From the NCBI GenBank assembly GCA_024123955.1, contig CP099652.1, positions 2,418,001 to 2,482,000 of the forward strand: a stretch of 64,000 nucleotides of DNA, read 5' to 3'. The translations under genes were made by a program, and so were the position numbers. The DNA is from Oxalobacteraceae bacterium OTU3CINTB1 (GTDB taxonomy: Bacteria; Pseudomonadota; Gammaproteobacteria; Burkholderiales; Burkholderiaceae_D). Positions within the stretch are counted from its first letter, which is position 1. Every line of letters begins with the position of its first letter. The notes under the pieces are model-generated. The model saw only the letters and a program-made list of their open reading frames with translations, did not search any database and was not told the origin of the DNA. Shown one piece after another: positions 27,156 to 45,171 of this stretch.

Positions 27156-28088
27156 TCAGACGCCGACAGTCGATGGCAGCAGCGCTTCGATCGCCGCCAG
27201 CGACGGCGGCGAGGCGCCGGCCGCCAGGCACGCCGCCGCGCCGGCGGCCACTGCGAAGCGCAGGTGCTCCAGCGGCACGCGTTCGGGGTGGTGCATCATG
27301 CTGTACGCGAGCGCCGCGATGCTGGCGTCACCCGCGCCGACCGAATCGATCACGGTGATGCGCGGCGCCGGCAGCGCCCATTCCTCGCCGCCGATGTGCA
27401 GCGAGGCGCCGTCGCCGCCCTTGGTGTACAGATAGGTCGCACCCGGATTCCAGCTGCGCAGCGTGGCGAACGCGGTCTCGATGTCGTCGCTGCGGAACAG
27501 GCCCGCCAGATCCTCCTCCGACACCTTGACCACGTCGGCCAGCTCCGTCATGCGGCGCAACGTGGCGTCATAGCGCTCGTCCATCAGCAGCCGGTAGTTC
27601 GGATCGAAGCTGATGCGCACGCCGTCCAGTTTGAGCTGTTCGGCCAGCGCCACCAGCTTGCCGGCCAAAGGCTGGCGCGCCAGGCTGATGCCGCCGAAGT
27701 GCACCCATTTGCAGTGCGCGCGCCAGCCTTCGGGCAGCAGCGAGGCGTCGAAGTGCAGGTCGGCGCTGTCGTCGCCGACGAAGAAGTAGGCCGGTGGATC
27801 GGTGCGGTGCACGATCGCCAGCAGCGGCGATTTCGCGTAGCGCTGCAGGAAGCGCATGTCGAGGTTGGCCGCGACGCTGGCGCCGTGCAGCGCGTCGCCG
27901 AAGACGTCGATGCTGATGGCGCCGGCGAACGCGGTCGGCACCTCCAGCTTCGCCATTGTGCGCGCCACGTTCCAGGTCGAACCGCCGACCTGGCTAAGCC
28001 AGCGCTGTGGATTCGGCTGGTCGCCGTCCTGCACGATCATGTCGGTCAGCGCTTCGCCCGCCGCGACAAACAAAGGGAAAGTCGCCAT
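27156..28088 (-). CDS. PfkB-family fructokinase
   Basis: A 310-residue sugar kinase with the first PfkB signature around QVGGSTWNVARTMAKL and the second around DSVGAGDAS (catalytic D254). The KGGDGASL ATP-site segment is also present. It starts 1 base after the AGE-family isomerase stop, so the pair is co-translated. With a mannose isomerase producing fructose, phosphorylation to fructose 6-phosphate would feed glycolysis. Fructokinase specificity is inferred from context and overall pattern, not from a decisive residue. Confidence 0.82.
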   Translation of the reverse strand: MATFPLFVAAGEALTDMIVQDGDQPNPQRWLSQVGGSTWNVARTMAKLEVPTAFAGAISIDVFGDALHGASVAANLDMRFLQRYAKSPLLAIVHRTDPPAYFFVGDDSADLHFDASLLPEGWRAHCKWVHFGGISLARQPLAGKLVALAEQLKLDGVRISFDPNYRLLMDERYDATLRRMTELADVVKVSEEDLAGLFRSDDIETAFATLRSWNPGATYLYTKGGDGASLHIGGEEWALPAPRITVIDSVGAGDASIAALAYSMMHHPERVPLEHLRFAVAAGAAACLAAGASPPSLAAIEALLPSTVGV

Positions 28089-28089
28089 C

Positions 28090-29304
28090 TCAATCCTTCT
28101 TCAATACGTTCAGCACTTCGTAGCAGGCGCCCATGGTGTGGTAATCCACTTTGCCGGCCGGGCTTTTCTCGTCCGTCAGCTTGCTGTTGTCGGCGCCGAG
28201 GATGCGGTACCACGCGCCGTATTGGTGATCAACGAAATGCTCCCAGCTATAGGCCCAGATCTTGTCGTACCAGGTCCAGTAGCTTGCCTCGCCGGTGCGG
28301 GCTCCCAGCAGGGCGGCGGTGGCCAGGCTCTCGGCCTGCACCCAGAAGTATTTGAGATCGTCGCAGATGCTGTCGTCCGGCCCGAAGCCGTAGTAGATGC
28401 CGCCGTGCTGCGCGTCCCACGCCTTGTCCATCGCCGCGTTGAACAGCTCCACGGCGCGCGGCAGCAGCCAGTCCTTGCCGCCTTCCAGCTGGTCGCCATG
28501 GCGTTCCAGCAGCAGCAGCAGCTTGGCCCATTCGGTCAGGTGGCCCGGCTGGTAGCCCCACGGACGGAAGATATTGCTCTTGTCGTGACGGTTGTATTCG
28601 GTGTCGACCGACCAGTCGGCGTGATAGTGTTCCCAAATCAGATTGTCTGCCAGCGCGGCCTGGCGTTGCGTGATGTTGCGTGCCAGTGTTTCGGCGCGCA
28701 GCAGGAAGGCGCGCTCGCCGGTCGCTTCGAAGGCTGCGATCAGCGCCTCGCAGGCGTGCATGTTGGCGTTTTGGCCGCGATACGCGTCCAAGGTCGACCA
28801 GTCGGCGCTGGCCTCGTCGGCGTACAGGCCGTATTTGGCGTCCCAGAAGCGTTGTTCCATCAACGCGAAGGTTTCGTCGATCCATGCGCGGGCTTCGGTT
28901 TCGCCGGCCATCAACGCGTGGCTGTAGGCGAGCAGCACGAAGGCCAGGCCGTAACAGTGGTTGGTGCCGTCGGTGACGCGGCCTTCGCCGTTGTTCCAGT
29001 CCAGCTGCCACGCATAGCCGCCGGTTGCCGGGTTGCGGTGGGCGGCGCGCAGGAAGGCCAGGCCGTGGCGCAGGCGCTGCTGGTCTGCCGCCTCGCCGAA
29101 CTGGCGCCACGCCATCGCGTGCGTGAAAATGAAGCGCGTGCTGCTGACCAGATGGCGCGTGTGGCTATCGTAGACGGTGCCGTCATCCTTGTAGAAGTGA
29201 TAGAAGCCGCCGCTCGAGTCCACGCAACGGCTGTCGTAAAACTGGCGGGTATGGCGGATGTGGTTCAGCAGCGTTGCGCGGGATTGAAAATCTGGTACCA
29301 TCAT
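28090..29304 (-). CDS. AGE-family sugar isomerase (probable D-mannose isomerase)
   Basis: A 404-residue (alpha/alpha)6-barrel protein of the N-acylglucosamine 2-epimerase family. It has HTRHLVSSTRFIF, RGQNANMHACEAL, IFRPWGYQPGHLTEWAKLLLL and the late KVDYHTMGACYE, which supply the catalytic histidines and ring-binding aromatics. Family members include mannose isomerase (mannose to fructose), cellobiose/mannobiose 2-epimerase and GlcNAc 2-epimerase. No GH130 phosphorylase is nearby and a fructokinase follows directly, so mannose isomerase is the best reading. The ribosome binding site is weak, and two tandem 11-base repeats lie in the leader. Confidence 0.78.
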   Translation of the reverse strand: MMVPDFQSRATLLNHIRHTRQFYDSRCVDSSGGFYHFYKDDGTVYDSHTRHLVSSTRFIFTHAMAWRQFGEAADQQRLRHGLAFLRAAHRNPATGGYAWQLDWNNGEGRVTDGTNHCYGLAFVLLAYSHALMAGETEARAWIDETFALMEQRFWDAKYGLYADEASADWSTLDAYRGQNANMHACEALIAAFEATGERAFLLRAETLARNITQRQAALADNLIWEHYHADWSVDTEYNRHDKSNIFRPWGYQPGHLTEWAKLLLLLERHGDQLEGGKDWLLPRAVELFNAAMDKAWDAQHGGIYYGFGPDDSICDDLKYFWVQAESLATAALLGARTGEASYWTWYDKIWAYSWEHFVDHQYGAWYRILGADNSKLTDEKSPAGKVDYHTMGACYEVLNVLKKD

Positions 29305-29448
29305 TGGGTCCGTTGTTGGTTCGTTGTTGGTTGATAGGCAGGGCGCTTTTTACGGCTGCCCGGTGTTATATTTTCAGGCGCGCGCAGGCCCCGCATCGGC
29401 GCGGCGCCAATCCCGATTGTTGCGCGATCTTCCTCGGTCTGGCTGGAT

Positions 29449-30534
29449 TCAGGCGGCGGCCACGCTGCCTCCTTTGCCCTGCGGCTTCTGCACCCGCCAG
29501 CCGTCGAACACCGTGCTGGCCCGTACCACCAGTTCCACCGGTGCGATTTTCTCGACCGGCTCGTTATGCGGGCCATTCAACAGCATCTCAACACCCAGCG
29601 CGCCGAGCGCCTTCTTATCGATGCGCAGCGTCGTCAAGGGGCGATGTCCCAGCACGGCGGTCGAAATATCGTCGAAACCGACGATGGCGATGTCGTGCGG
29701 GACCTTCAATCCCCTGGCCAGGCAGCAGCGCATCGCCACCAGCGCGGCGCTGTCGTTGTAGCAGAATACGGCGTCGGGCGGATGGGGCAGGGCGAGCAAC
29801 TGCTCCATCGCCTCCCATGCGCCGGTTTCCAGGTCGACGCCGTCCGGCAGGCCCGCTTCCAGACGCGGGTCGGCCAGGATGCCTTCTTCGAACAGCGCCT
29901 GGCGGTAGCCGCGTGCCCGCTCGCGAATACTGTAATGCGACAGCGGACCTGAAATGAAGCCGACCCGCGTGCGGCCGGTGTCGATCAGGTGTTTGGTCGC
30001 CAGATAGCCGCCCATCATATTGTCCGGATTGACCGAGCTGTAACCGCGCAGCTTCATATCGATCAGCACCAGCTGCTTGCCGGTCGAGCGCAGGGCGCTC
30101 AGTGTTTCGGGCTCGAAGAAGCCGGCGCAGACGATACCGTCAGGCGCATGCATGCGTATCTGGTCGATTAATCCATCGGCCGGGCCGACCGCCATGAACG
30201 ACAGCACGATGCCCTGCTTGCGGCAGGCTTCCTCGGCGCCGTGCAGCACCGGCGAGTAGAAAGGGCTGCTCGAGGCGGTGTTGTGCTGGCGGTGCAGCAG
30301 GAACGTCAGGCGGCGCAAGCGCTTCGGGCGCAGTTTGCAAAAGTCGTAACCGAGGTTGCGCGCCGCCTCCAGCACCATCTGGCGCGTGGCCTCGGTCAAT
30401 CCCGGTTCGTTTTTCAGTGCGCGTGAAATGGTCCCCGCCGACACGCCGGCCACGCGTGCGATATCGCGTATCGTCACTCCGGTGGTCGCCGCGCTATTTG
30501 TGGAATCGCCCATCTCAGTCTCCAAATCTCTCAT
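29449..30534 (-). CDS. LacI-family transcriptional regulator of the mannan locus
   Basis: A 361-residue repressor with an N-terminal helix-turn-helix (about 20-45: VTIRDIARVAGVSAGTISRAL) and a periplasmic-binding-protein-like effector domain (PDAVFCYNDSAALVAMR, IAIVGFDD). It is divergent from the transporter-glycosidase operon, and two 21-bp operator-like palindromes lie in the gap. By LacI/GalR practice it would release DNA when a sugar of the pathway (mannose, mannobiose or a phosphate ester) binds. M8 (30513) is an alternative start. Confidence 0.88.
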   Translation of the reverse strand: MRDLETEMGDSTNSAATTGVTIRDIARVAGVSAGTISRALKNEPGLTEATRQMVLEAARNLGYDFCKLRPKRLRRLTFLLHRQHNTASSSPFYSPVLHGAEEACRKQGIVLSFMAVGPADGLIDQIRMHAPDGIVCAGFFEPETLSALRSTGKQLVLIDMKLRGYSSVNPDNMMGGYLATKHLIDTGRTRVGFISGPLSHYSIRERARGYRQALFEEGILADPRLEAGLPDGVDLETGAWEAMEQLLALPHPPDAVFCYNDSAALVAMRCCLARGLKVPHDIAIVGFDDISTAVLGHRPLTTLRIDKKALGALGVEMLLNGPHNEPVEKIAPVELVVRASTVFDGWRVQKPQGKGGSVAAA

Positions 30535-30634: not shown

Positions 30635-30655
30635 GTTTAGCGCAATTTACTAAAC
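30635..30655. promoter_or_regulatory. LacI-type operator candidate O1
   Basis: A 21-bp palindrome with arms GTTTAG and CTAAAC around nine bases, 101 bp upstream of the regulator start. It shares the pattern GTTTARC-N4-TTYACTAAAC with O2 (reverse strand) and O3. Confidence 0.7.
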
Positions 30656-30711: not shown

Positions 30712-30732
30712 GTTTAGTGAAGGCGGCTAAAC
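30712..30732. promoter_or_regulatory. LacI-type operator candidate O2
   Basis: A 21-bp palindrome with the same arms and spacing as O1, 93 bp before the transporter start. Read on the minus strand it matches O1 at 16 of 21 positions. Centre-to-centre distance from O1 is 77 bp, compatible with a repression loop. Confidence 0.7.
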
Positions 30733-30755
30733 TGCGCCCCAAATGCGCTTGCTAT

Positions 30756-30824: not shown

Positions 30825-32090
30825 ATGGAGCACGTTGCACCGGCGACTTTGAGTACCCACGACCATGCGCGTCAGGGAGGGAGCAACACCTTCCCGATGA
30901 TGATCATCACGCTGCTGTTCTTTATGTGGGGTTTGATAACCTCGCTGAACGATGTCCTGATTCCCCACCTTAAATCGATTTATACGCTGACGTACGTGCA
31001 GGCGATGCTGGTGCAGTTCTGCTTCTTCGGCGCTTACTTCATCGTCTCGCTCCCCGCCGGTATGTTGATCAAGCGCCTGGGCTACCAGCGCGGCGCGGTC
31101 GCCGGCCTGGTGGTCGCCGCCATCGGCTGCGCCATGTTCTATCCCGCCTCGATGGGCGGCTACGCGCTGTTCCTCCTGGCCTTGTTCGTCCTCGCCGGCG
31201 GCATCACCATCCTGCAGGTCTCCGCCAATCCCTACGTTGCGGCGCTGGGCGCGCCGGCCACCGCGTCGAGCCGCCTAACCCTGACGCAGGCGTTTAATTC
31301 GCTCGGCACCGCGATCGCTCCGGCGCTGGGTGGTTTCCTGATCCTGTCCGAAGGCGTTCCGGCCGTCGCCAACATCGTCAAGACCAAGGCCGAGGAAGCC
31401 GCCACAGTGCAGGGACCATATCTGGTGCTGGCAGCCGCCTTGCTGGCCATCGCCATCCTGTTCGCGCTGGTGCGCCTGCCGAAGATCGTCGATGCCGAGG
31501 AAGCCAGCGCCTACACGCTGGACAAAAAAGTGACATCGCACCGCCACCTGGTGCTGGGCGCGATCGGCATCTTCCTGTACGTCGGCGGAGAGGTCAGCAT
31601 CGGCAGCTTCCTGATCAACTTCCTGGGCGAGTCCAACATCGCCGGCATGTCGCACGGCGCGGCTGCCAACTACGTCAGCTTTTACTGGCTTGGCGCCATG
31701 ATCGGCCGTTTCATCGGCTTCGGCGTGATGCGCTACGTCAGCCCGGGCAAGGCCCTGGCGTTCAACTCGGCCGCCTCCATCGTGCTGCTGCTGACGGCGA
31801 TCTTCTCGCACGGCGCGCTCGCCATGTGGGCCGTTATCGCGGTCGGCCTGTTCAATTCCATCATGTTCCCGACCATCTTCAGCATGGCGCTGTACAAACT
31901 CGGTCCCCTGACCAGCCAGGGTTCGGGCATCCTGTGCATGGCCATCGTCGGCGGCGCGCTGGTGCCGTTCGCGCAAGGCCTGCTGGCCGACACCATCGGC
32001 CTGCAGCTGTCGTTCTTCGTGCCGGCGGCCTGCTATACCTTTATCCTCTACTACGGCCTGAAATATGCCGGTATGTATTCCAGCCGTTGA
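30825..32090 (+). CDS. FucP/GluP-type sugar MFS transporter
   Basis: A 421-residue inner-membrane sugar:proton symporter with 12 hydrophobic segments. It shows the family pattern FFMWGLITSLNDVLIPHLK in TM1, ISANPYV-like LQVSANPYVAALG in TM4 and LTLTQAFNSLGTAIAPALGG in TM5. Relatives import fucose, glucose, galactose or mannose. As the first gene of the seven-gene glycosidase operon it most likely imports mannose or another galactoglucomannan sugar. GAGGAG precedes the ATG by 9 bases. Confidence 0.88.
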   Translation: MEHVAPATLSTHDHARQGGSNTFPMMIITLLFFMWGLITSLNDVLIPHLKSIYTLTYVQAMLVQFCFFGAYFIVSLPAGMLIKRLGYQRGAVAGLVVAAIGCAMFYPASMGGYALFLLALFVLAGGITILQVSANPYVAALGAPATASSRLTLTQAFNSLGTAIAPALGGFLILSEGVPAVANIVKTKAEEAATVQGPYLVLAAALLAIAILFALVRLPKIVDAEEASAYTLDKKVTSHRHLVLGAIGIFLYVGGEVSIGSFLINFLGESNIAGMSHGAAANYVSFYWLGAMIGRFIGFGVMRYVSPGKALAFNSAASIVLLLTAIFSHGALAMWAVIAVGLFNSIMFPTIFSMALYKLGPLTSQGSGILCMAIVGGALVPFAQGLLADTIGLQLSFFVPAACYTFILYYGLKYAGMYSSR

Positions 32091-32127: not shown

Positions 32128-34422
32128 ATGAATTCCGAACTCAATCTGCGTCCGCTGGCCATCGCGCTGGCGGTGGCCGCAACGCTTGCCGCCGCTACCA
32201 TCGTCACCGTGGCGACCGCGCTGCCGTCCTACGCCGCCGGACAAGAGGCAAACGGGCCTGCCGAACCGGCATCCAAGCCCTGGCTGGACAAGTCGCTGGG
32301 TGCCGACAAGCGCGCCAGGCTGGCGCTGGAGGCCATGACCCAGCAGGAAAAACTGAACTGGGTGCTGGGTTACTTCGGCGCCGACTTCGTCCCCAACAAG
32401 ACCAAGAAGCATCCGGCCGCGCTGCCTTTCTCGGCCGGTTACATTCCGGGCGTGCCGCGTCTGGGCCTGCCGGCGCTGTTTGAGACCGACGCTGGTCTGG
32501 GCGTGGCCACGCAACTGAGCAAAAACCCGCGCGAGCGCACCTCGCTGCCTTCCGGTCTGGCCACCACCGCCACCTGGAACCGCGACCTGGCCTACCAGGG
32601 CGGCGCCATGATCGGCCGCGAGGCGCGCGCCTCCGGCTTCAACGTGATGCTGGCCGGCGGCGTGAACCTGCTGCGCGAGCCGCGCAACGGCCGTAACTTC
32701 GAATACGCCGGCGAAGACCCGCTGCTGGCCGGCACCATGGTGGCGCAGCAGATCAAGGGCATCCAGTCGAACAACTTGATCGCGACGATGAAGCACTTCG
32801 CCGTCAACAACCAGGAGACCGGCCGCTTCGTGCTCGACGCCCGCCTGGACGACGCCAGCAACCGCATGTCCGATCTGCTGGCGTTCCAGTTCGTGCTCGA
32901 ACAGTCCAATCCCGGCTCGGTCATGTGCTCGTACAATCGCCTGAACGGCGTCTACGCCTGCGAAAACGACTACTTGCTCAACCAGGTGCTGAAGAAGGAC
33001 TGGGGCTTCAAGGGCTATGTGATGTCCGACTGGGGCGCCGTCCACAGCACCGTGGAATCGGCCAACAGCGGCCTGGATCAACACTCCGGCTGGGAGTTCG
33101 ACAAGTCGGCCTACTTCGGCGGCGCGCTGGAGGAGGCGGTTGAAAACGGCCACGTGCCGCAGGCGCGCCTGGACAACATGGCGTACCGCATCCTGTGGGC
33201 GATGTTCGACAAGGGCGTGGTCGATAATCCGGTCAAGGAAGGCGGCGCCATCGATTTCGACGCGCACAAGCAGGTGAGCCAGGCCGACGCGGAGGAGGGC
33301 ATCGTCCTGCTGAAGAACACCAGCAGCGTGCTGCCGCTCAAGGCCGGCGCCAAAAAGATCGTCGTTATCGGCGCCCACTCGGATGTCGGCGTGCTGGCTG
33401 GCGGCGGCTCGTCGCTGGTGTATCCGGTCGGCGGCAATGCGGTGCCGGGCATCGAACCCACCATCTGGCCGGGTCCCGTGGTGTACCACCCGTCGTCGCC
33501 GCTGAAGGCGATCAAGGCCCGCGCCGGCGGCGCCAAGGTGGTCTACAACGACGGCAAGGATGCCGCCGCGGCGGCTAAGGAAGCGGCCGACGCCGATGTC
33601 GTCATCGTCTTCGCGCAGCAGTGGGTGGGCGAGGCGCTCGATGCCGTGTCGCTGTCGCTGCCGGACAACCAGGATGCGCTGATCGCCGCCGTCGCCAAGG
33701 CCAATTCGAAAACCGTGGTGGTGCTGGAGACCTCCGGTCCGGTGCTGATGCCGTGGGTCGACCAGACCGCCGCCGTGGTGCAGGCTTGGTACGCCGGCAG
33801 CGGCGGTGGCGAGGCGATCGCCCGCGTGCTGTATGGCGAGGTCAATCCGTCCGGCCACCTGCCGGCTACCTTCCCGGTCTCCGAGAGCCAGCTGCCGCGT
33901 CCAAAACTGGACGGCGATCCGAAGAAGGACCGCGAGCGCTTCACCGTCAACTATCACGAAGGCGCGGCGGTCGGCTACAAGTGGTTCGACGCCAAGGGCC
34001 TCAAGCCGCTGTTCCCCTTCGGTCATGGCTTGTCGTACACGCAGTTCTCGTATTCCGGCCTGGCGGCCAGCGAGAAGGACGGCAAGCTGCAACTGAGCTT
34101 CAAGGTCACCAACACCGGCGCCGTCAAGGGCAAAGACGTACCGCAGGTGTATGTATCGCCGGTAGGCGTCAAGTGGGAAGCGCCGAAGCGCCTGGCCGGC
34201 TGGGACAAGGTCGAACTGGCGCCGGGCGAGAGCAAGGACGTCAGCGTGACGGTCGATCCGCGCCTGCTGGCCATGTATGACGGCAAATCGAAGACCTGGC
34301 GTGTCGCCAGCGGCGGCTACAAGGTGTTGCTGGCGCATGACGCGGGTGATGCCAAGGCCGCCAGCATCACCGTGCAGCTACCGAAGCAGACTTTGAACGT
34401 CGCAGGCAAGCCAACCAAGTAA
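32128..34422 (+). CDS. Secreted GH3 beta-glucosidase-like enzyme
   Basis: A 764-residue exo-acting beta-glycosidase with a signal peptide (1-36, ending SYAAG). The GH3 N-terminal barrel has KHFAVNNQETGR and the nucleophile region MSDWGA (D301). The alpha/beta sandwich follows with VVIGAHSDVGVLAGGGSS, and a C-terminal fibronectin-III-like domain carries PFGHGLSYTQF. In this operon it would remove beta-linked glucose from glucomannan oligosaccharides; xylosidase or other GH3 specificities remain possible. It lies 37 bases after the transporter. Confidence 0.9.
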   Translation: MNSELNLRPLAIALAVAATLAAATIVTVATALPSYAAGQEANGPAEPASKPWLDKSLGADKRARLALEAMTQQEKLNWVLGYFGADFVPNKTKKHPAALPFSAGYIPGVPRLGLPALFETDAGLGVATQLSKNPRERTSLPSGLATTATWNRDLAYQGGAMIGREARASGFNVMLAGGVNLLREPRNGRNFEYAGEDPLLAGTMVAQQIKGIQSNNLIATMKHFAVNNQETGRFVLDARLDDASNRMSDLLAFQFVLEQSNPGSVMCSYNRLNGVYACENDYLLNQVLKKDWGFKGYVMSDWGAVHSTVESANSGLDQHSGWEFDKSAYFGGALEEAVENGHVPQARLDNMAYRILWAMFDKGVVDNPVKEGGAIDFDAHKQVSQADAEEGIVLLKNTSSVLPLKAGAKKIVVIGAHSDVGVLAGGGSSLVYPVGGNAVPGIEPTIWPGPVVYHPSSPLKAIKARAGGAKVVYNDGKDAAAAAKEAADADVVIVFAQQWVGEALDAVSLSLPDNQDALIAAVAKANSKTVVVLETSGPVLMPWVDQTAAVVQAWYAGSGGGEAIARVLYGEVNPSGHLPATFPVSESQLPRPKLDGDPKKDRERFTVNYHEGAAVGYKWFDAKGLKPLFPFGHGLSYTQFSYSGLAASEKDGKLQLSFKVTNTGAVKGKDVPQVYVSPVGVKWEAPKRLAGWDKVELAPGESKDVSVTVDPRLLAMYDGKSKTWRVASGGYKVLLAHDAGDAKAASITVQLPKQTLNVAGKPTK

Positions 34423-34447: not shown

Positions 34448-35779
34448 ATGAAACAACTTTACAAATTCTGCGCCACCGCGTTGATGATCAGCGCATGCGG
34501 CATCGTTTCCGCAGCCGATGGCGCGGCTGTCGGCAAAGGCGATTTCGTCAGCGCCAAGAAGACCCACTTCGCGCGCAAAGGCCAGGCCTACTATATCGTC
34601 GGCGCCAACTTCTGGTACGGCGGCTACCTCGGCGCCCCAAAAGGCGTGGGCGAGCGCGCCCGCCTGCTCAAGGAACTCGATAGCATGCGCGCGATCGGCA
34701 TCAACAACCTGCGCGTGCTGGCCGTCTCCGAGAAGACCGATATGAAAAGCGCCGTCAGTCCGGCGACCACCGCCAAGCCGGGCGAGTACGACGAGAACCT
34801 GTTGGTCGGCCTGGACTTCCTGATGGCCGAAGCGGCCAAGCGCGATATGACGGTGGTGCTTTACCTGAATAACTTCTGGCAGTGGTCGGGCGGTATGACG
34901 CAGTATCTGAACTGGTTCGAAGGCACGCCGGCGCTGGACCCGAACGTGACCAAGGACTACGACGACTATATGAAGAAGAACGCGCGTTTCTACGTCAACG
35001 CAGCCGCGCAAAAAGAATACCGCAACGTGATCCAGAAGATCGTCAAGCGCGTCAACACCATCACCGGCAAGCCGTACTCGGAAGACCCGATCCTGATGTC
35101 GTGGCAGCTGGCGAACGAGCCTCGCCCAGGCAACGGCAACGCCACGCCTGAAGAGAAAAAGGCCTACATCAAGTGGATCGACGAAACCGCCGGCTATATC
35201 CATAGCCTGGACAAGAACCACATGGTCAGCAGCGGCAGCGAAGGCCTGGCCGGCTCCGCCCAGGACGCGCAGCTGTTCCTCGATTCGCACCGCACCAAGA
35301 ACATCGACTACCTGACCTACCACCTGTGGCCGAAAAACTGGGGCTGGTTCGATTCCAAGGACCCAACCGGTTCGTGGGACGGCGCCATCGCCAAGAGCCG
35401 CAACTACCTGACCTCGCACATCGACCTGGCCAGGAAGCTCGACAAGCCTATCGTGCTGGAGGAATTCGGCCTCGATCGTGACGGCGCCTCGTTCAGTATC
35501 AAGGCCACGACCAAGATCCGCGACCGCTTCTACCGCGAAGTATTCGACTTCGTCTACGATGGGGCCAAGAAGGGCGATCCGATCGCCGGCTTCAATTTCT
35601 GGGCCTGGGGCGGTGCCGGGCGCGCGGCCAACGCGGATTACTGGTGGAAGCCGGGTAACGACTTCGTCGGCGATCCACCGCAGGAAGAGCAGGGCCTGTA
35701 CTCGGTGTTCGACTCGGACACCAGCTCGCTCAAGCTGATCAAGGAATACGCCGACAAACTCAATTCCATCAAACGCTAA
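34448..35779 (+). CDS. GH5 endo-beta-1,4-mannanase (GH5_7-like)
   Basis: A 443-residue secreted endo-mannanase. The GH5 acid/base is E224 in QLANEPRPG and the nucleophile lies in VLEEFGLDRD (E338/E339). GANFWYGGYLGAP near the start and YHLWPKNWGW are typical of subfamily 7 mannanases. The N-terminus could be cleaved after VSA, or lipidated at Cys17 (ISAC lipobox), which would tether it to the outer membrane. It would cut the mannan backbone into oligosaccharides. This is the most specific marker of the locus substrate. Confidence 0.9.
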   Translation: MKQLYKFCATALMISACGIVSAADGAAVGKGDFVSAKKTHFARKGQAYYIVGANFWYGGYLGAPKGVGERARLLKELDSMRAIGINNLRVLAVSEKTDMKSAVSPATTAKPGEYDENLLVGLDFLMAEAAKRDMTVVLYLNNFWQWSGGMTQYLNWFEGTPALDPNVTKDYDDYMKKNARFYVNAAAQKEYRNVIQKIVKRVNTITGKPYSEDPILMSWQLANEPRPGNGNATPEEKKAYIKWIDETAGYIHSLDKNHMVSSGSEGLAGSAQDAQLFLDSHRTKNIDYLTYHLWPKNWGWFDSKDPTGSWDGAIAKSRNYLTSHIDLARKLDKPIVLEEFGLDRDGASFSIKATTKIRDRFYREVFDFVYDGAKKGDPIAGFNFWAWGGAGRAANADYWWKPGNDFVGDPPQEEQGLYSVFDSDTSSLKLIKEYADKLNSIKR

Positions 35780-37005: not shown

Positions 37006-40000
37006 ATGAAGCGCACGATGACTGTGGCGGCGTTGGCCGCGATGATGTGGTCCGGCGCCCAAGCCGGCGACCAGTGGGGGCCCTATAACGCTGAATTCCC
37101 GGCCGCCAGCGATGGCTTGCTGAAGAAGGTCAAGCAGGTCGATATCTTCTCGTCGTCGATGGCGGGCAGGGTGCAGCCGTTCGGTTTGAGCGGCTGGTTC
37201 AAACCGTCGGAGCCGGCGCCCGGCCGCACCCTGATCGCGGGCGTCGCCGGCGCGCAGGCGGGGCCCGGCTGGTTCGTGTGCAGTGTGGACGGCGCATTCG
37301 CTTTTTGCGGCTATGGCCTGGAAGTGGTCTCGCCGCTGAAACTAGCGTCGAACGCCTGGGTGCACCTGGCCGTCAGCTATGACGGCAAACAAATCACCTT
37401 GTACGCCAACGGCAGCGCCGTCGCCCGGCAGGACGCGGTGCTCAATGCCGAGGACTTCAAGCCCGCCCCGGTCACGGACCTTGCACAGACCACGCCGATC
37501 GACGACTTCGGCGCCCGGATTTCGCTGGGCCCGCGCAGCAAGGCCGCGACAGGCTACGCCGGGCGGATCGCCGGTTTCACCGTCACCGCCACGGCGCTGG
37601 ACGAGGGCGCGATACGCGCGACGGCGGCCGCGCAGCCAAACGATGCACTGATCAATTTCGAATCCGGTAGTCCATCGTGGCCGATACAGGTAAGGCAGAT
37701 GTACGGCCAGGTCGCGCCGCAGGACCCGTGGACCTTGCCAAAATCCGGTTCGCCGCTCCAGGAGCCGAAAGCCAAGCCGGCCTATGGCGGTCCGGCGCTG
37801 GTGCAGAAGTATGCCAATCTGTGGACCATCAAGTCGTGGAAGCTGCAGGCCGCGCCCGAGATAAGCGCCAAGCCGGAGCACATTTCGTCGGCCGGCTTCG
37901 ATGCCGCCGGCTGGTATCAAACCACCACGCCAGGCACGGTGTTGACCACGCTGGTCGATCGCGGCGTCTATCCGGATCCCGATTACGGCCTGAATAACAT
38001 GGCCATTCCGGAATCGCTGAACAAACAGGATTACTGGTATCGCACCTTGTTCCAGCCACCCGCAGGCTTCAAACAGGGGCAGCGTTTGTTCGTCACCTTC
38101 AAGGGCGTGAACTACGAGGCGGAAGTCTGGATCAATGGCCGCAAACTCGGTGGCATGAAGGGCGCCTTCGTGCGCGGCACCTTCGACATCAGCCCCTATC
38201 TGAAGCTCAAGGGCGAGAACGTCATCGCGGTCAAGGTCTCGCCGCCGCCGCATCCAGGCCTGCCGCAGGAAGAGTCGATTGCGGCCGGCGCCGGCGAAAA
38301 CGGCGGCACTTTGGCGCAGGATGGCCCGACCTTCATCGCGTCCGAGGGTTGGGACTGGATTCCATCGGTCCGCGACCGCAACACCGGCTTGTGGCAGGAC
38401 GTGGAGCTGCATGCCACGCGCGACTTTAAACTGGGCGACGCCCAGGTGATCACCGCGTTGCCGAGGGCCGACAACAGCGTGGCCGACGTCAGCATCGAAG
38501 TGCCGGTCTCGAACTTATCGAAGTCGGCGCAGCGGGTGACCGTACGCGCGACGATCTCGCGCCGTGACGGTGGCATGAAGCCTGTCCATGTGAGCAAGAC
38601 CGTCAGCCTGGCGCCGGGGGAGCACGGCGTGCGTTTCACGCCGGCCGATTTCGCCGCGCTCAAGCTGAAGAATCCTAAACTGTGGTGGCCAAACGGCTAT
38701 GGCGCGCCGGATCTGCATGAACTCAAGCTCGAGGCGCTGCAGGGCACGCAGTTGTCGGACCAGGCCAGCACCCGCTTCGGGGTGCGCGCGGTGACGTACG
38801 AACTGTCGCTGGTCGACCAGAGCGGCCATCTGCGCCGCGTGGAAGCCGATTTCACCAAGGGCCGTGAACTGGGCGTGCGCATCACCGACGGTCGCCACCA
38901 GTCCATCAAAAAGCTTTCGGATAACAATTGGGCCACGGGCCTGCGGCCGGAGGCGGAAGGCACGGCTGCCATCCGTCCGCTGGAGGAAACCACGCTCAGT
39001 CCCTTCCTGGTCATCAAGGTCAATGGCGTACGCATCGCGGCGCGCGGCGGCAACTGGGGCACGGAAGACTGGCGCAAACGCATCGACCGCGAACGGCTGG
39101 AGCCTTATTTCCGCCTGCACCGGGACGCCAACGTCAACATCATCCGCAACTGGGTGGGGCAGAACACCGAGGAGAGCTTCTTCGAACTGGCCGACGAATA
39201 CGGCCTGATGGTGTTGAACGACTTCTGGGCCTCGACCCAGGATTACAACCTGGAGCCGCAGGACGTCAACCTGTTCATGGAAAACGCGCGCGATGTGGTC
39301 AAGCGCTACCGCAACCATCCGTCGGTGATCATGTGGTTCGGCCGTAATGAGGGCGTGCCGCAGCCCGTGCTGAACGAGGCGCTGGAGGCGATGATCTATC
39401 AGCTCGACGGCACCCGCTGGTACAGCGGCAGCTCGAACCGCGTCAACCTTCAGAACAGCGGCCCGTATAACTACCAGACGCCTGCCAGCTACTTCACCGA
39501 GCACGCCAAAGGCTTCTCTGTTGAAGTGGGCACGCCGTCGTTCCCGACGATCGAGGCGATCAAGGCGGCGGTGCCGTCGACCGACCAGTGGCCGTTGAGC
39601 GACACCGTCACGTATCACGACTGGCACCCTGACGGCAACGGCAGCGTCAAGAGCTTCAACGCGGCGATGGCGACTGGTTATGGCGCGCCCGATTCGCTTG
39701 CGGACTTCGAGCGCAAGGCCCAGATGTTGAACTACGAAAGCCACCGCGCCATCTTCGAAGGCATGAACGCGGGCCTGTGGCGCCAGCACAGCGGCCGCAT
39801 GCTGTGGATGACGCAGCCGGCCTGGCCGAGCACCATGTGGCAGATTCTCAGCCACGACTACGATACGCACGGCGCCTTCTACGGCGTGAAGAGCGCGGCG
39901 GAGCCGGTCCACGTGCAAATGAACCTGCCCGATTATCGGCTCATGGTGATCAACAACCCGGCCGCCGCGCTGAATGGCGCCACGCTGTCGTACGCAGCCT

Positions 40001-40518
40001 ACGACGTCCAGGGCAAGCTGCTGGCCGGCGGCGACAAGCCGGTGACGGTGGCGCCGGTGAGTACGTCGGAACCCATCGACGCCGGCATCGCCGCCTTGCT
40101 GGCGCAGTACAAGCTGATCGTGCTCAAACTGGTGCTCAAGGACGCTGCTGGCAAAGTGCTGTCGCAAAACGCCTATTGGCCGAGCAGCACCTTGGCCGGC
40201 CAACAGGGCTTGAACCAGCTGGCGACGGTGCCGCTGGAGCTGGCCGCGCGCTGGACCTCCGCCGCTGTGCGGGGCGAACGGCAGTTGGAGGTTACAATGC
40301 GCAACGGCGGCGAAGTGCCTGCCCTGAGCGGTAAACTGACCTTGTTCAATGCGGACGGCGAGAGGATACTGCCGGTGTATTTTTCGGATAATTATGTAGC
40401 GCTGATGCCGGGCGAGAGCCGCACCGTGACCGTCACGTTCAAGAGCCAGGGCGCGGTGCGCCTGGATCTGCGTGGCTGGAACGTGTCGCCGCAATCGCTG
40501 CAGGTAAGCGCGCAATGA
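37006..40518 (+). CDS. GH2 beta-mannosidase-like enzyme with N-terminal LamG-type domain
   Basis: An 1170-residue secreted enzyme (signal peptide 1-20, AQAG). Residues about 25-215 form a concanavalin/LamG-like domain (VHLAVSYDGKQITLYANG, ARISLGPR). A GH2 sugar-binding domain follows (about 340-450, WYRTLF, VNYEAEVWINGRKLG), then an Ig-like domain and the TIM barrel. Acid/base is E782 in MWFGRNEG and nucleophile E840 in FSVEVGTPSFPT; Ig-like domains end the protein. Layout resembles exo-beta-glucosaminidase and beta-mannosidase subgroups of GH2. The operon favours beta-mannosidase; a glucosaminidase role is the main alternative. It starts 1 base after the GH27 stop. Confidence 0.85.
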   Translation: MKRTMTVAALAAMMWSGAQAGDQWGPYNAEFPAASDGLLKKVKQVDIFSSSMAGRVQPFGLSGWFKPSEPAPGRTLIAGVAGAQAGPGWFVCSVDGAFAFCGYGLEVVSPLKLASNAWVHLAVSYDGKQITLYANGSAVARQDAVLNAEDFKPAPVTDLAQTTPIDDFGARISLGPRSKAATGYAGRIAGFTVTATALDEGAIRATAAAQPNDALINFESGSPSWPIQVRQMYGQVAPQDPWTLPKSGSPLQEPKAKPAYGGPALVQKYANLWTIKSWKLQAAPEISAKPEHISSAGFDAAGWYQTTTPGTVLTTLVDRGVYPDPDYGLNNMAIPESLNKQDYWYRTLFQPPAGFKQGQRLFVTFKGVNYEAEVWINGRKLGGMKGAFVRGTFDISPYLKLKGENVIAVKVSPPPHPGLPQEESIAAGAGENGGTLAQDGPTFIASEGWDWIPSVRDRNTGLWQDVELHATRDFKLGDAQVITALPRADNSVADVSIEVPVSNLSKSAQRVTVRATISRRDGGMKPVHVSKTVSLAPGEHGVRFTPADFAALKLKNPKLWWPNGYGAPDLHELKLEALQGTQLSDQASTRFGVRAVTYELSLVDQSGHLRRVEADFTKGRELGVRITDGRHQSIKKLSDNNWATGLRPEAEGTAAIRPLEETTLSPFLVIKVNGVRIAARGGNWGTEDWRKRIDRERLEPYFRLHRDANVNIIRNWVGQNTEESFFELADEYGLMVLNDFWASTQDYNLEPQDVNLFMENARDVVKRYRNHPSVIMWFGRNEGVPQPVLNEALEAMIYQLDGTRWYSGSSNRVNLQNSGPYNYQTPASYFTEHAKGFSVEVGTPSFPTIEAIKAAVPSTDQWPLSDTVTYHDWHPDGNGSVKSFNAAMATGYGAPDSLADFERKAQMLNYESHRAIFEGMNAGLWRQHSGRMLWMTQPAWPSTMWQILSHDYDTHGAFYGVKSAAEPVHVQMNLPDYRLMVINNPAAALNGATLSYAAYDVQGKLLAGGDKPVTVAPVSTSEPIDAGIAALLAQYKLIVLKLVLKDAAGKVLSQNAYWPSSTLAGQQGLNQLATVPLELAARWTSAAVRGERQLEVTMRNGGEVPALSGKLTLFNADGERILPVYFSDNYVALMPGESRTVTVTFKSQGAVRLDLRGWNVSPQSLQVSAQ

Positions 40519-40529
40519 AAGGATTCAAG

Positions 40530-41276
40530 ATGAAGAAGTCGCTGATCTCCGCAGTCGTCGCCGTCGGCCTGCTGGCCTTGTCCAGCGCCCCGAGTTACGC
40601 CGATGCGGCCCTGAGCCCCTCTGCATGCAGCACCACGCCTGCGCCGCGCAAAATCGAGTATCCGTGGATGTCGGTGGCGCGCTGGCACCAGATGTTCAAC
40701 GAGGACGTCGCGGTGGCCGATGCCGGCAACGTCGATCTGCTGTTCGTCGGCGACTCCATCACCGAAGGCTGGAACCAGCAGATCTGGGACAAGTCCTTCG
40801 GCGCATGGAAGGCGGCCAATTTCGGCATCGGCGGCGACCACACCGGCAACGTGCTTTGGCGGCTAGACAACGGCCACGCCGAAAAGCTGCATCCCAAGCT
40901 GGTGGTGCTGACTATCGGCGTGAACAATTTCTTCCATTGTAATGCCGCCCCGGACGACGTGTTCGAAGGCGTGCAGGCGGTTGTCAAGAAGCTGCGCGCG
41001 CTGTACCCGGACGCGAAGATCCTGCTCAACGCCGTGCTGCCCTACGAGCAGTCGGCGCAGAGCCCGAAGCGGCAGCAGATCATTGAGTTGAACCGCAAGA
41101 TAGCGACGCTGGGTGATGGCAAAACCATCATCTTCAAGGATTACGGCGCGCGCTTCCTGCTGTCGAACGGCGACATGTCGTCCGAGGTGATGGGCGACTT
41201 CCTGCACCCGACGCCCAAGGGGTATCAGATCTGGTCCGACGCGATGCTGCCGGATATACAAAAGCTGATGAAGTAA
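40530..41276 (+). CDS. SGNH/GDSL-type esterase, secreted
   Basis: A 248-residue hydrolase with signal peptide and the SGNH blocks: I VGDSITEGW (Ser76), II FGIGGDHTGN, III IGVNN (the usual GxND Asp is Asn), V GDFLHPTPKG (Asp/His). It resembles platelet-activating-factor-acetylhydrolase-like acetylesterases. In a mannan operon it would remove O-acetyl groups. ATG 40530 is chosen because AAGGA lies 6 bases upstream; ATG 40515, overlapping the GH2 stop, is an alternative that adds five residues. Confidence 0.82.
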   Translation: MKKSLISAVVAVGLLALSSAPSYADAALSPSACSTTPAPRKIEYPWMSVARWHQMFNEDVAVADAGNVDLLFVGDSITEGWNQQIWDKSFGAWKAANFGIGGDHTGNVLWRLDNGHAEKLHPKLVVLTIGVNNFFHCNAAPDDVFEGVQAVVKKLRALYPDAKILLNAVLPYEQSAQSPKRQQIIELNRKIATLGDGKTIIFKDYGARFLLSNGDMSSEVMGDFLHPTPKGYQIWSDAMLPDIQKLMK

Positions 41277-42340
41277 TGAGCGGCGCCCGACGCCGTATCA
41301 CCGGCGGCGCGGCATTGGTTGCCGCGCTATGGGCCCACGCCCCGCTGGTCGCGGCGGCGTCGATAACGGCCACCGATCGCCACGTCGCCCGGATGGGCCG
41401 AACCGATATCAACGCCGACGGCGTGGTGCGGTTCGGCTATCCGGGCGTTAGTTTTTATCTCAACTTCGAGGGCACGCGCCTCAGCGTCGAGGCGGAGGCC
41501 AGCGGCGAGAACAGCTACCTGGACGTGATCGTCGACGGCGTCGCGCGCAAGGTACGGCTGGCGTTCGGCAGGCAGACTGTCACCCTGGTCGACGGCGCCT
41601 CCGGCGGCAAGCACTCGGTGCAAATCGTCAACCGGTCCGAGACCTGGCATGGCACCGCCGCGCTGCTGCGCTTCGACACCGACGGTATATGGAACGCCGC
41701 ACCCGTCCTCCCGCAACGCAAAATGCTGATACTGGGCGATTCCGTCACTTGCGGTGAGGCGATCGACCGCGTGGCAGGAGCGAAAAAGGATCCGTCCTGG
41801 TGGAACGCGCGTTCCTCTTACGGCATGCTGATGGCGCGCGAGTTGCGCGCGCAGGTGCAGCTGGTCTGCTACGGCGGACGAGGCTTGATACGCACATGGG
41901 ACAACAAGACCGACGAACTGAATCTGCCGGACTATTATCAGCTGGCGATCCCGGACCGGAAAACGCCGGCACGCTGGAACCAGCGGGATTACCGGCCCGA
42001 TGTGATACTCAGTGTGATCGGGACCAACGATTTCAATGGCGGGATTCCGGACCGCGAGCAATATGTGGGCACCTACGTGCGGTTCGTGCGGACGATACTG
42101 AAAGATCATCCGCAGGCGCGGATCGTGTTGACCGAGGGCGGTTTGGTGACCGGCGAGAAGAGGGCGGCGCTGATCGAATATATCGCCGAGACGGTAAAGC
42201 GGGTGGGGGACAAAAGGGTGCGCGCGATCGCGTCGAAGCCCTATTCGGGCGATGCGGATGATGGGCATCCGACCAGGGAGCAAACCGTCAATATCGCCAA
42301 CGATTTGCTCCCGCAGGTACGTTCCGTCATGAGTTGGTGA
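41276..42340 (+). CDS. Carbohydrate esterase family 2-like acetylesterase
   Basis: 354 residues: a signal sequence, a jelly-roll domain (about 40-145: VRFGYPGVSFYLNFEGTRL), then an SGNH domain with LGDSVTCGE (Ser156), VIGTNDFNGG and DDGHPT (His331). A beta-sandwich followed by SGNH is the CE2 layout; CE2 enzymes deacetylate mannan and xylan. The ATG shares one base with the previous stop. It is the last gene of the operon, and a palindromic repeat follows before the convergent TonB receptor. Confidence 0.85.
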   Translation: MSGARRRITGGAALVAALWAHAPLVAAASITATDRHVARMGRTDINADGVVRFGYPGVSFYLNFEGTRLSVEAEASGENSYLDVIVDGVARKVRLAFGRQTVTLVDGASGGKHSVQIVNRSETWHGTAALLRFDTDGIWNAAPVLPQRKMLILGDSVTCGEAIDRVAGAKKDPSWWNARSSYGMLMARELRAQVQLVCYGGRGLIRTWDNKTDELNLPDYYQLAIPDRKTPARWNQRDYRPDVILSVIGTNDFNGGIPDREQYVGTYVRFVRTILKDHPQARIVLTEGGLVTGEKRAALIEYIAETVKRVGDKRVRAIASKPYSGDADDGHPTREQTVNIANDLLPQVRSVMSW

Positions 42341-42363
42341 GTGTTTGGGCCGCCGACGGAGCT

Positions 42364-42472: not shown

Positions 42473-42477
42473 ACGCC

Positions 42478-45171
42478 TTAGTAGCTCGCGCCGACCCGGA
42501 ACCCGAACATGCGAGGCTGTACGAAATTGGCCTCCATGAACCCACCAAACACCGAATTGCCGCTCAACTTCGCGTGGCTGTTCGAGATGTTGCGAACATA
42601 CAGCTCCGCGTGCCATTTGTCTTCCGGCGCCTCCAGCCGCACCGACGCGTCGCCCATCGCATACGCCTTCTGATAACGGCCGATGTGAGCGAACTCCGAA
42701 TTGAGCATGTCGAAGTAAGCCTTGTCGCGCCAGTTCACCTTCACGTACGGGATCACCTTGTAGCCGTTTTCAAACCCGAACTCCTGCGAGAAGTTGATGT
42801 TGAACTGGTACTTCGGCGTGTTCGGCAGGTGGTTGCCGTCGATGTTGGCCAGGCGGCGTCCCAGCAAGGTCTTGTCCGGACCGTTGTAGGCGGTCGGGCA
42901 GGCCGGCAGGCCCAGTTCCACGCGCACGTCGCACTGATAGTCGTCGCTGTACGAGTTGTAGTCGTGGATGCTCGAGTTGATGAACGCGAAACCGCCGCCG
43001 ATACGGCCGCCGCGCCATGGCCTGTAGTCCCATTCCAGTTCCAGGCCCGGGATATTCACCTTGCCGACGTTGATGGTGCGCCAGCCTTCATACACGTCGC
43101 ACTTCGGCTGGTCGGCCGGGCAGGGCAGGCCTGCCGAAGGAATGATCTGGTTGATGAAGTAGGTGCCGGTCACCTGCATGTCCTTGTACTTCATGAAGAA
43201 CGCGGTGGCCGAAAGGCTCAAACGGTTGTCCAGGAATTTACCCTTGAATCCCAGTTCATAGTTGGTGACGGTCTCCGGCTCGTAAGGCAGGAACGTCTCG
43301 ACGCCAGGTTTGCCGTCGGCGCACAGGCGGTAGTTGCAGCTGTCGGTCTTGTCGGCGAAGCCGCCGGCCTTGTAGCCGGTCGACACGGAGGCGTACACCA
43401 TCTTGTTGTTGTCCAGTTGCTTTTGCAGGCCGGCGCGCCACGTCACTTTTTTCCATTCCTGTTTATGGTCGTTCGAGGTCGGCGCGCCGTACAGGTGGTA
43501 TGCCGCCACGCTGCCGCCCATTGCCGGCGTCAGGTCGGTGCCGTCGTGGACGCGGAAGCCGGGCGTGCCGGGCGTGCCTTGCGAATATAGGCCATTGTAG
43601 TAGGCCGAGTTGCCGATCCAGTTGGCGCCATAGACCTTGCCGCCCTTATCCTCTTTGCTGTCGATGCTATAGCGCGCGCCGAGGGTACCCGTCCACGTCG
43701 GGATGAACTTCCAGTCGGCTTGGGCGAAGACCGCCTTGGCGTCGACCTGGCGGTTAGGCTGGTTATACAGCACGCTGCCGACATCGCCGTACGGCTTCTG
43801 GATGGTGTTGGTCTGCTCGTAGTCGATGCGGTTACGCTCGTGCATCCAGAACAAGCCGCCGACATACTGCACATTGCCCAGCTGCTGCTTCAACTGCGCC
43901 TCGTGCACGGTCGACAGGTAGCGCGAGTCGAGCGTGCGGTGGAAGGAGTCGGTCAGCGGCCACGTGCCCCAGTTGCCATCGGCCGAATTCGGATACGCGC
44001 CATTGATCTGGAACGGCGCCGCGTGCTGCATGCCCAGATCGTCGTCGGTGATCTGCGAGCGGGTCTGGTCGGCGACCTGGAAGGTGTAGTCGAAGTTGGT
44101 GTGGTCGTTGATATTCCAGTTGATCCCCGTGCGCAGCGTCTTGATACTCAGGTCGTTCTGTCCGGGGACGTTGACGTTGATGTCCCACTTGCCCTGTCCG
44201 GGGCCGCAGGCGTAGCGGGTGCCGGCGGTGGCGTCGCAATCGCGGAAGGTGGCGCCGCCAGCGCCGGAATCCTGGAACTGCTCGTACGACGCCTTGGCCG
44301 TGATGTCCTTGTTGATCTTCAGGAGACCGGTCAGGCGGCCGGCCCATTCGTCCTGGTTGGTGTAGTAGTCGCTCGGGCCGATCACGCGGTTGAAGCGCTG
44401 GTCGACATCCGGCTTGCCGTTCGGGACCCAGCCCAGGGCCGGCGCGTTCGCTTCGCTCAGATCGCGCGTCTGGTTGGCGTAGCCGTCGCGCTTGACCTTC
44501 ATGAACGTCGCGCGCAACGCCAGCGCGTCGTTGACGACGATATTCTGCACCACGGAGATCTGCTTCTTGCGGTAGTTGCCGATGTCGATATCGGCCCTGC
44601 CGTAGTTGCCCGTCCAATCCGGCTTGGCCGGAATCACGTTGACGCTGCCGCCGGTGGAGTTGCGGCCGAACAGCGTGCCTTGCGGGCCGCGCAGCACCTC
44701 GACCTGTTCCAGGTCGAACATCAGCGCCTGCGCGCCTTGTGGCCGCGGCGAGTACATGCCGTCGACATGGAAGCCGACCGCCGGATCGCCGGTCTCGGTG
44801 AAGTTGGTGGAGGTGATGCCGCGTATGGTGATCTGGACGGCCGAATCCTCGCCGGTGTTTTCGATCACGACGTTGGGCATCTCGCCGCTCAGGTCCGACA
44901 GGCTGGTGGCGCCCTTGCGCGTCAGTTGCTCCTGGCTGAGCGCCGCGACCGCGAGCGGGGTGCGCAGCAGCGAGGTGGAGTAGCGGGTCGCGGTGACGCG
45001 CACTTCCTGGATCTGGTCCGGATTGGCCGACGAAGCGGCGGGTGCTGCGGTCTGGGCCTCGGCGGTGGCTGCGGTCGCGGTGTCGGTCTGGGCCTGGGCA
45101 CTCAACGTCATGAACGAACAAGCGCTGGCAACGGCCAGGCTCATGAGAGTACGTCTTGTGGGGTGCAACAT
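42478..45171 (-). CDS. TonB-dependent outer-membrane receptor (predicted mannooligosaccharide uptake)
   Basis: An 897-residue receptor with signal peptide (1-27, SAQAQ), a plug domain (about 55-175: EVRVTATRYSTS, IRGI, GPQGTLFGRNSTGGSVNV) and a large barrel ending in FRVGASY. Many Cys-containing surface loops (for example YQCDVRVELGLPACP) are seen. ATG 45171 has GAGGAG 7-12 bases upstream; a longer frame to 45285 does not give a signal peptide. It is convergent with the mannan operon, and a copy of the LacI operator lies 138 bp upstream, so it is assigned to the same regulon. Confidence 0.9.
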   Translation of the reverse strand: MLHPTRRTLMSLAVASACSFMTLSAQAQTDTATAATAEAQTAAPAASSANPDQIQEVRVTATRYSTSLLRTPLAVAALSQEQLTRKGATSLSDLSGEMPNVVIENTGEDSAVQITIRGITSTNFTETGDPAVGFHVDGMYSPRPQGAQALMFDLEQVEVLRGPQGTLFGRNSTGGSVNVIPAKPDWTGNYGRADIDIGNYRKKQISVVQNIVVNDALALRATFMKVKRDGYANQTRDLSEANAPALGWVPNGKPDVDQRFNRVIGPSDYYTNQDEWAGRLTGLLKINKDITAKASYEQFQDSGAGGATFRDCDATAGTRYACGPGQGKWDINVNVPGQNDLSIKTLRTGINWNINDHTNFDYTFQVADQTRSQITDDDLGMQHAAPFQINGAYPNSADGNWGTWPLTDSFHRTLDSRYLSTVHEAQLKQQLGNVQYVGGLFWMHERNRIDYEQTNTIQKPYGDVGSVLYNQPNRQVDAKAVFAQADWKFIPTWTGTLGARYSIDSKEDKGGKVYGANWIGNSAYYNGLYSQGTPGTPGFRVHDGTDLTPAMGGSVAAYHLYGAPTSNDHKQEWKKVTWRAGLQKQLDNNKMVYASVSTGYKAGGFADKTDSCNYRLCADGKPGVETFLPYEPETVTNYELGFKGKFLDNRLSLSATAFFMKYKDMQVTGTYFINQIIPSAGLPCPADQPKCDVYEGWRTINVGKVNIPGLELEWDYRPWRGGRIGGGFAFINSSIHDYNSYSDDYQCDVRVELGLPACPTAYNGPDKTLLGRRLANIDGNHLPNTPKYQFNINFSQEFGFENGYKVIPYVKVNWRDKAYFDMLNSEFAHIGRYQKAYAMGDASVRLEAPEDKWHAELYVRNISNSHAKLSGNSVFGGFMEANFVQPRMFGFRVGASY

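Follow-up and report, generated by a model that had tools for sequence, protein, structure and literature searches.

Gene content and layout of the cluster

We analysed a 64,000-nucleotide stretch of DNA (G000:C1:2418001-2482000; hereafter the window) from a 6.87-Mb single-contig genome, and in particular a carbohydrate-utilisation gene cluster at positions 27156-45171. The source is a soil bacterium of the family Oxalobacteraceae and is Duganella-like: among named organisms, Duganella sp. CF517 has the nearest relative of the cluster's glycoside hydrolase family 5 (GH5) protein (98%). Gene content and order were read directly, and Pfam, NCBIfam and PDB sequence comparisons were used to check the individual genes. 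The cluster that a first-pass annotation had placed here is real, and we think it likely that it serves, as a LacI regulon of the mannose type, to harvest fragments of acetylated, galactosylated gluco- or galactomannan.

Three genes lie on the minus strand. The first (27156..28088) encodes a fructokinase-like sugar kinase of the PfkB family (Pfam PfkB, 111 bits), whose best NCBIfam match, the fructokinase model PRK09434, scores 115 bits and does not reach the cut-off of 450. The second (28090..29304) encodes an AGE-family D-mannose isomerase, converting mannose to fructose (PF07221, 368 bits); its closest PDB chains are 3gt5 (548 bits) and 5x32 (477 bits), and its score with the NCBIfam D-mannose isomerase model is 217 bits, below the cut-off of 600. 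The third, lacI (29449..30534), encodes a regulator with LacI and Peripla_BP_3 domains, a candidate mannose repressor given the co-occurrence of gene and operator in the genus.

Seven genes follow on the plus strand, separated by gaps of 37, 25, 10 and 1 bp and then by overlaps of 4 and 1 bp. They encode a hexose importer of the major facilitator superfamily (MFS), gluP subfamily (30825..32090; TIGR01272, 354 bits, cut-off 203); a beta-glucosidase-like GH3 protein (32128..34422; PF00933/PF01915; best PDB chain 7ms2, beta-glucosidase B, 412 bits); a GH5 protein (34448..35779); a GH27 alpha-galactosidase (35790..37004; PF16499, 251 bits; best PDB chain 1uas, an alpha-galactosidase, 349 bits); a LamG-GH2 glycoside hydrolase whose specificity we do not assign (37006..40518); and two SGNH esterases. 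The first of these is a GDSL-type, PAF-acetylhydrolase-like protein and a candidate mannan acetylesterase (40515..41276; PF13472, 95 bits; best PDB chain 1fxw, 101 bits). The second is a carbohydrate esterase family 2 (CE2) acetylxylan esterase/glucomannan deacetylase of the AxeC2 type (41276..42340; NF042969, 532 bits, cut-off 500; PDB 2waa, 379 bits). A TonB-dependent outer-membrane receptor (42478..45171; PF00593 and PF07715) then lies on the minus strand; its reading frame stays open to 45285, and the ATG at 45171 seen in the translation agrees with the end point given in the first-pass annotation. Signal-like N-termini are seen on the putatively exported enzymes, and GH5 and GH27 also have lipobox-like patterns.

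Pfam scans of the cluster proteins at E 0.001 gave no match to the SusD family, so the SusC-SusD pair that marks a polysaccharide utilisation locus of the Bacteroidetes type is absent, with only the TonB receptor present. The lack of SusD is normal for Proteobacteria. The receptor, an inner-membrane sugar transporter, a regulator and glycoside hydrolases do occur together in one conserved cluster, which is what characterises a proteobacterial TonB-dependent carbohydrate utilisation locus. The earlier description of the locus as a proteobacterial counterpart of such polysaccharide utilisation loci is thus fair, but it is not new, since TonB receptor, regulator and inner-membrane transporter are the known proteobacterial format.

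We collected 46 Oxalobacteraceae loci by means of GH5, with 10-kb flanks and thresholds of our own setting. LacI and the isomerase are each present in 42 of these, the kinase in 39, CE2 in 35, GH3 in 34, GH27 in 32, the MFS protein in 31, the SGNH esterase in 28 and GH2 in nine. The receptor is found in 15, a number of loci ending before or inside its place, and 15 loci have the nine-gene set that leaves out GH2 and receptor. Among 34 other loci, only GH27 recurs besides GH5 at 40% identity or more (8/34). Within the set formed by the window's genome and 60 relatives, GH5 occurs in 21 genomes, all of the same genus.

Cellvibrio mixtus is said to carry a man5A-aga27A galactomannan cluster (reportedly described by Centeno in 2006). 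This cluster and seven loci of the Gilvimarinus/Cellvibrionaceae type (L065, L066, L071, L075, L090, L091, L094) resemble ours in having a GH5 of the C. mixtus Man5A (CmMan5A) type directly followed by GH27, with AGE-family genes and LacI nearby. In the seven loci, clustering gives AGE, LacI, a sodium symporter, GH130, a second AGE, GH5 and GH27, with domains read on L065. Where the Cellvibrio/Gilvimarinus-type loci have GH130, a second AGE gene and the symporter, the window's cluster has instead the MFS protein, GH3, two esterases, the PfkB kinase and the TonB receptor; GH130 (PF04041), a mark of the Cellvibrio-type mannan operon, had no match in the window's genome, in a scan whose control gave matches in 4 of 14 genomes. 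The mannosides pathway of Shewanella (manR I/II, manP I/II, ompMan, manI, manK), as outlined in part of PMC2996990, is alike by description in its logic of regulator, TonB receptor, transporter, mannose isomerase and fructokinase-type enzyme. A table of LacI-family regulons, in the excerpt of PMC4052901, has the entry 'Mannose and mannosides, 5, ManR'.

Candidate specificities of the enzymes

The GH5 protein had been called an endo-mannanase. Its best PDB match is CmMan5A (1uuq; 560 bits, residues 31-435), a GH5 beta-mannosidase, and it matches the exo-beta-1,4-mannosidase 4lyp with 254 bits over residues 21-439. By contrast, the best chain named endo-mannanase (1rh9) scores 138 bits in an alignment that ends at residue 394. 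Of the 12 chains named mannanase among the matches listed, 11 end by residue 398 and one (6tn6, 97 bits) reaches 435, so that a match extending past residue ~398 appears supportive of the CmMan5A type without being exclusive to it. The GH5 protein matches CmMan5A over its full length, including the C-terminal stretch AWGGAGRAANADYWWKPGNDFVGDPPQEEQGLYSVF, which is kept in its relatives: none of 69 aligned rows, query included, has more than 10 gaps there. We take the corresponding region of CmMan5A to close the cleft and to make that enzyme exo-acting. On these scores and the kept C-terminal stretch we reject the endo-mannanase call, and the enzyme set of the cluster most likely trims mannan from chain ends. 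The excerpt of PMC9232400 describes CmMan5A (1UUQ) as a GH5 beta-mannosidase that acts in synergy with a mannanase, and adds that the enzyme favours galactomannan polymers and other longer substrates.

None of the cluster genes was recognised as coding for an endo-acting backbone enzyme. Two candidates lie elsewhere in the genome. One is a GH26 protein, a candidate endo-mannanase whose closest PDB chain is the GH26 endo-mannanase 3zm8 (174 bits). The other is a GH5 protein at 3737200, possibly endo-acting, whose relatives are named mannan endo-1,4-beta-mannosidase by one source and cellulase family or endoglucanase by others. NCBIfam at 1e-10 returned nothing for GH26 or for the two best GH5 matches.

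A beta-mannan target is nonetheless well supported by family assignment, that is, by the CmMan5A-like GH5, GH27, CE2 above the AxeC2 cut-off, the mannose isomerase and the kinase. The proposed target of acetylated galactoglucomannan, a main softwood hemicellulose, stands as far as beta-mannan is concerned, as does the path to fructose 6-phosphate for mannose. Coverage of every linkage does not, since the cluster has no recognised endo-mannanase, the GH2 subtype is unassigned, and the isomerase and kinase serve mannose only, with the galactose and glucose routes absent from the cluster. The galactokinase domain (PF10509) had no match in the genome, in a scan whose control gave matches in 10 of 14 genomes; galactose must thus go by another route. 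The locus is a well-conserved mannan locus and not a self-sufficient galactoglucomannan system. Among the matches listed in our literature search, no beta-proteobacterial system for acetylated galactoglucomannan was found.

The LamG-GH2 protein had been taken for a beta-mannosidase, an assignment we do not retain: its nearest solved relative is the exo-glucosaminidase CsxA of Amycolatopsis, and even the best structure scores only 218 bits. The protein carries a PF18368 domain, and both E782 and E840 are invariant in the query and 39 homologues, giving the pattern of a Glu acid/base and a Glu nucleophile that is also common in other GH2 groups. In CsxA, an exo-beta-D-glucosaminidase, the acid/base is an Asp (D469), and the alignment with chain 2vzs pairs E782 with the Asp. 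Glu also stands in the D469 column in the sequence of record 2vzo, D469 being named in an entry title. Although the fold is nearest to CsxA, as judged from a second look at Foldseek's list rather than a search, we reject a CsxA-type glucosaminidase on the Glu acid/base. The cluster GH2 is further unlike CsxA in its added LamG domain and in being linked to and fused with acetylesterases. The predicted model of GH2 is middling, with a mean predicted local distance difference test (pLDDT) score of 71.5, a predicted template modelling (pTM) score of 0.69 and values below 50 in stretches 781-785 and 810-845, too low for a pocket to be read. The protein has at least 3215 homologues at E 1e-30 or better. 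The P0002 family is a large LamG-GH2 group, with Caulobacter and Niveispirillum proteins ~55% identical.

Ten loci bear GH2, namely the window and nine of the 46 Oxalobacteraceae loci. It is a separate gene in three (the window, L022 and L023), is fused to the SGNH esterase in five (L026, L031, L037, L048, L059) and to both SGNH and CE2 in two (L024, L025), and similar GH2-esterase fusions occur among database proteins (for example P0010, P0011, P0012 and P0015). These natural fusions argue that GH2, SGNH and CE2 share one substrate, acetylated mannan. Acetylated glucomannan is a substrate of CE2 enzymes according to the excerpt of PMC2661963. In other mannan systems a second esterase takes off the axial 2-O-acetyl group, as told in parts of PMC10492685 and PMC13276840, and by analogy we infer that the PAF-acetylhydrolase-like SGNH protein is a candidate for such a 2-O-deacetylating role. 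These two systems, CE2 with CE17 in Roseburia (PMC10492685) and CE7 with CE25 in Bacteroides cellulosilyticus (PMC13276840), are alike in using an esterase pair on mannan, with CE2 as one partner in the former. The cluster differs in having a PAF-acetylhydrolase-like SGNH protein as its second esterase, and the excerpts mention no esterase-GH2 fusion. The fusions thus draw attention to a GH2 group that is unassigned and to a protein that may be a new mannan deacetylase.

Putative LacI operators and the unlinked GH92 gene

Two dyads of the form GTTTAG-N9-CTAAAC lie between lacI and the MFS gene (30635..30655, GTTTAGCGCAATTTACTAAAC, and 30712..30732, GTTTAGTGAAGGCGGCTAAAC), and a third, GTTTAA-N9-CTAAAC, lies upstream of the receptor (45309..45329, GTTTAACAAACTTTACTAAAC); no strand is assigned to them. 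These three dyads support the earlier proposal of one regulon. The pattern GTTTAR-N8..10-YTAAAC occurs at five places genome-wide, three of them in this cluster, while the reversed control pattern gave two forward and two reverse matches.

Conservation of the operator and its co-occurrence with lacI were observed directly. Forty of the 46 Oxalobacteraceae loci contain the dyad, 38 of them in at least two copies; it is present in 40 of the 42 loci with lacI and in none of the four without. The strict form GTTTAR-N3..7-TTTACTAAAC is found in 44 of 74 genus genomes (83 sites, versus two control matches). It occurs in 44 of the 45 genomes with a LacI of at least 74% identity, the exception being G021, and in none of the other 29, at an identity cut chosen after the table had been viewed; the corresponding Fisher value of 1e-19 is too optimistic because the genomes are related. 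Two sites found with a short pattern, 92681 and 5375311, were dropped, as the surrounding stretches lack the strict dyad. At site 4938041 (L194, L199) no mannan gene was seen beside the dyad when the list of open reading frames was judged by eye, no family scan having been made.

The first-pass annotation had missed that the same kind of operator also occurs outside the cluster. In the window's genome, an unlinked gene for a GH92 alpha-mannosidase has a dyad 108 bp ahead of it, at 3613489. When 20 sites were picked in the genus for lying away from the lacI locus, 14 preceded a GH92 orthologue and one a distant GH92 (34%); two others precede a TonB receptor, one a GH3/MFS pair, and two none of the query genes. 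Among GH92 orthologues of at least 84% identity, a perfect dyad precedes the match in 25 of 27, at a distance of 79-131 bp from its start and within 300 bp of scanned upstream sequence. In the 24 sites of 20 bp all 12 half-site bases are invariant, the spacer positions being 67-96% conserved, and one further site is 21 bp long. The dyad appeared in one of 5400 shuffled GH92 upstream regions and nowhere in 103 kb of sequence from inside genes or downstream of them. Thus, the regulon probably joins beta- and alpha-mannoside genes.

Some further sites were seen. A one-mismatch dyad, ATTTAGTAAACGTCACTAAAC, lies at 3376812 (L197:2513), ~120 bp before a GH6 gene that is followed by a GH3 gene, and another dyad with one mismatch lies at 4481532. 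In two genomes (L137, L155) the strict operator precedes a TonB receptor ~30% identical to the second receptor of the window.

Proposed working of the regulon and alternative readings

Under our reading, mannan fragments released by endo-mannanases encoded elsewhere, or by neighbouring organisms, would cross the outer membrane via the TonB receptor. Acetyl groups would be stripped off in the periplasm by CE2 and the SGNH esterase, and galactose by GH27; GH5 (as an exo-beta-mannosidase), GH3 (as a beta-glucosidase) and GH2 would trim the remainder to monosaccharides. The MFS protein would then import hexoses, and mannose would be converted by the isomerase to fructose and by the kinase to fructose 6-phosphate. 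Through GTTTAG-N8/9-CTAAAC sites, LacI would repress the lacI-isomerase-kinase side, the operon from the MFS gene through the glycoside hydrolases, the receptor and the unlinked GH92 gene. It would probably be released by mannose or a close product, since mannose would be the shared product of the beta-mannan enzymes and GH92. In this scheme we infer where the proteins are located, which substrates the enzymes take, what GH2 and SGNH do, and both the binding and the effector of the repressor.

What is new here is the probable reach of the regulon to GH92 and the natural GH2-esterase fusions; the format of the locus was already known. In Leeuwenhoekiella and Salegentibacter, according to part of the review PMC10766802, alpha- and beta-mannan enzymes are induced jointly, possibly through mannose. 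The operator set offers a testable mechanism, at the level of sequence, for such co-regulation in another phylum. Among the matches listed from open-licence PubMed Central literature, we found no operator set joining a beta-mannan cluster with GH92 and no LacI-GH92-mannan regulon, which does not exclude that one exists. A wider proposal is tentative, and we would sooner doubt than assert it as a whole: a single LacI repressor of Duganella, reading mannose as the common signal, would turn on the breakdown of beta-mannan and of alpha-mannosides alike by way of an operator that tolerates different spacings; the LamG-GH2-SGNH-CE2 architecture, whether in a single polypeptide or in three overlapping genes, would be new; GH2 would form a new beta-manno-active subgroup; and SGNH would supply the 2-O-deacetylation that CE2 lacks.

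Several observations weigh against the regulon reading. The preference of CmMan5A for longer substrates and polymeric galactomannan makes it uncertain that GH5 acts on oligosaccharides only, and the specificity of GH2, judged from its sequence relatives, is at candidate level. No dyad with at least 10 of 12 half-site matches (spacers 8-10) was found in the stretches around GH26 (L105), four PF00150 matches (L156, L157, L159, L196) or the second GH92 (L195). Endo-mannanases were accordingly rejected as regulon members, and depolymerisation is not shown to be co-regulated. When one mismatch is allowed in the window's genome, the dyad shows no excess over the control (six places versus eight for N9, two versus six for N8). 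Two loci, L061 and L082, have lacI without the dyad. The identity cut of 74%, besides being set after the fact, leaves 12 genomes with a LacI of 56-71% among the 29 that lack the strict form. Lastly, the GH92 orthologues of G023 and G015 lack the dyad, and so does a GH92 of 79% identity in G071 (L193), a genome with a close LacI. G071 is one of seven further genomes with a GH92 of 79-81% identity and no perfect dyad; the other six have no close LacI.

Most GH92 sites have a spacer one base shorter than in the cluster dyads, which leaves room for a different regulator at GH92. We therefore considered whether the GH92 dyad belongs to another LacI paralogue with a similar operator, which would place the alpha-mannosidase outside the regulon. 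That 24 of the 25 GH92 sites span 20 bp, versus 21 bp in the window, would fit this explanation, as would the absence of a GH92 site in G071. The six genomes without a close LacI orthologue (L187-L189, L190-L192) also fit: they carry a LacI of 56-58% identity, and the GH92 upstream region has the compact palindrome GTTTACTAAAC in all six. This palindrome may reflect a change of operator alongside a change of LacI. Against a separate paralogue, 25 of 28 GH92 genes of at least 79% identity have the perfect dyad where a close LacI orthologue is present, versus none of six elsewhere. On this association we regard a separate paralogue as rather unlikely.

Less probable still is that the target is not plant mannan but N-glycans or other alpha/beta-mannosyl glycans. 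GH92 would then release alpha-mannose, the core beta-mannose would fall to GH2 or GH5, and N-acetylglucosamine to the GH20 protein encoded next door. GH92 does share its kind of operator with the cluster, GH2 carries the PF18368 domain, and a NagP-like MFS gene, a TonB receptor and GH20 adjoin the cluster at 45602-52293. But the CE2 deacetylase and GH27 are, by established knowledge, not enzymes of the N-glycan core, GH2 fuses with acetylesterases, and the GH20 block has no dyad apart from that of the receptor. GH20 was counted beside the cluster in 4 of the 46 loci, a count that says little as the 10-kb flanks mostly stop short of its place. The first-pass reading, in which the galactoglucomannan locus is self-sufficient through an endo-mannanase of its own and a standard GH2 beta-mannosidase, agrees with the broad gene list and is very improbable given the CmMan5A-like GH5, the CsxA-nearest GH2 and the location of the endo-mannanase candidates elsewhere.

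Two other blocks of the window were noted. The one at 45602-52293 resembles an N-acetylglucosamine/chitin-type module, in which the NagP-like MFS protein scores 501 bits and does not reach the cut-off of 625, the receptor is of the TonB-Xanth-Caul type, and GH20 completes the set. The other, at 17627-26978 on the minus strand, is a selenocysteine formate dehydrogenase block with tRNA-Sec at 17627-17722, a SelA match in the open reading frame 19701-21842 and iron-sulfur and cytochrome b subunits at 22248-23832. Its catalytic subunit is split into two same-frame open reading frames that meet at the SECIS_3 element (26281-26339).

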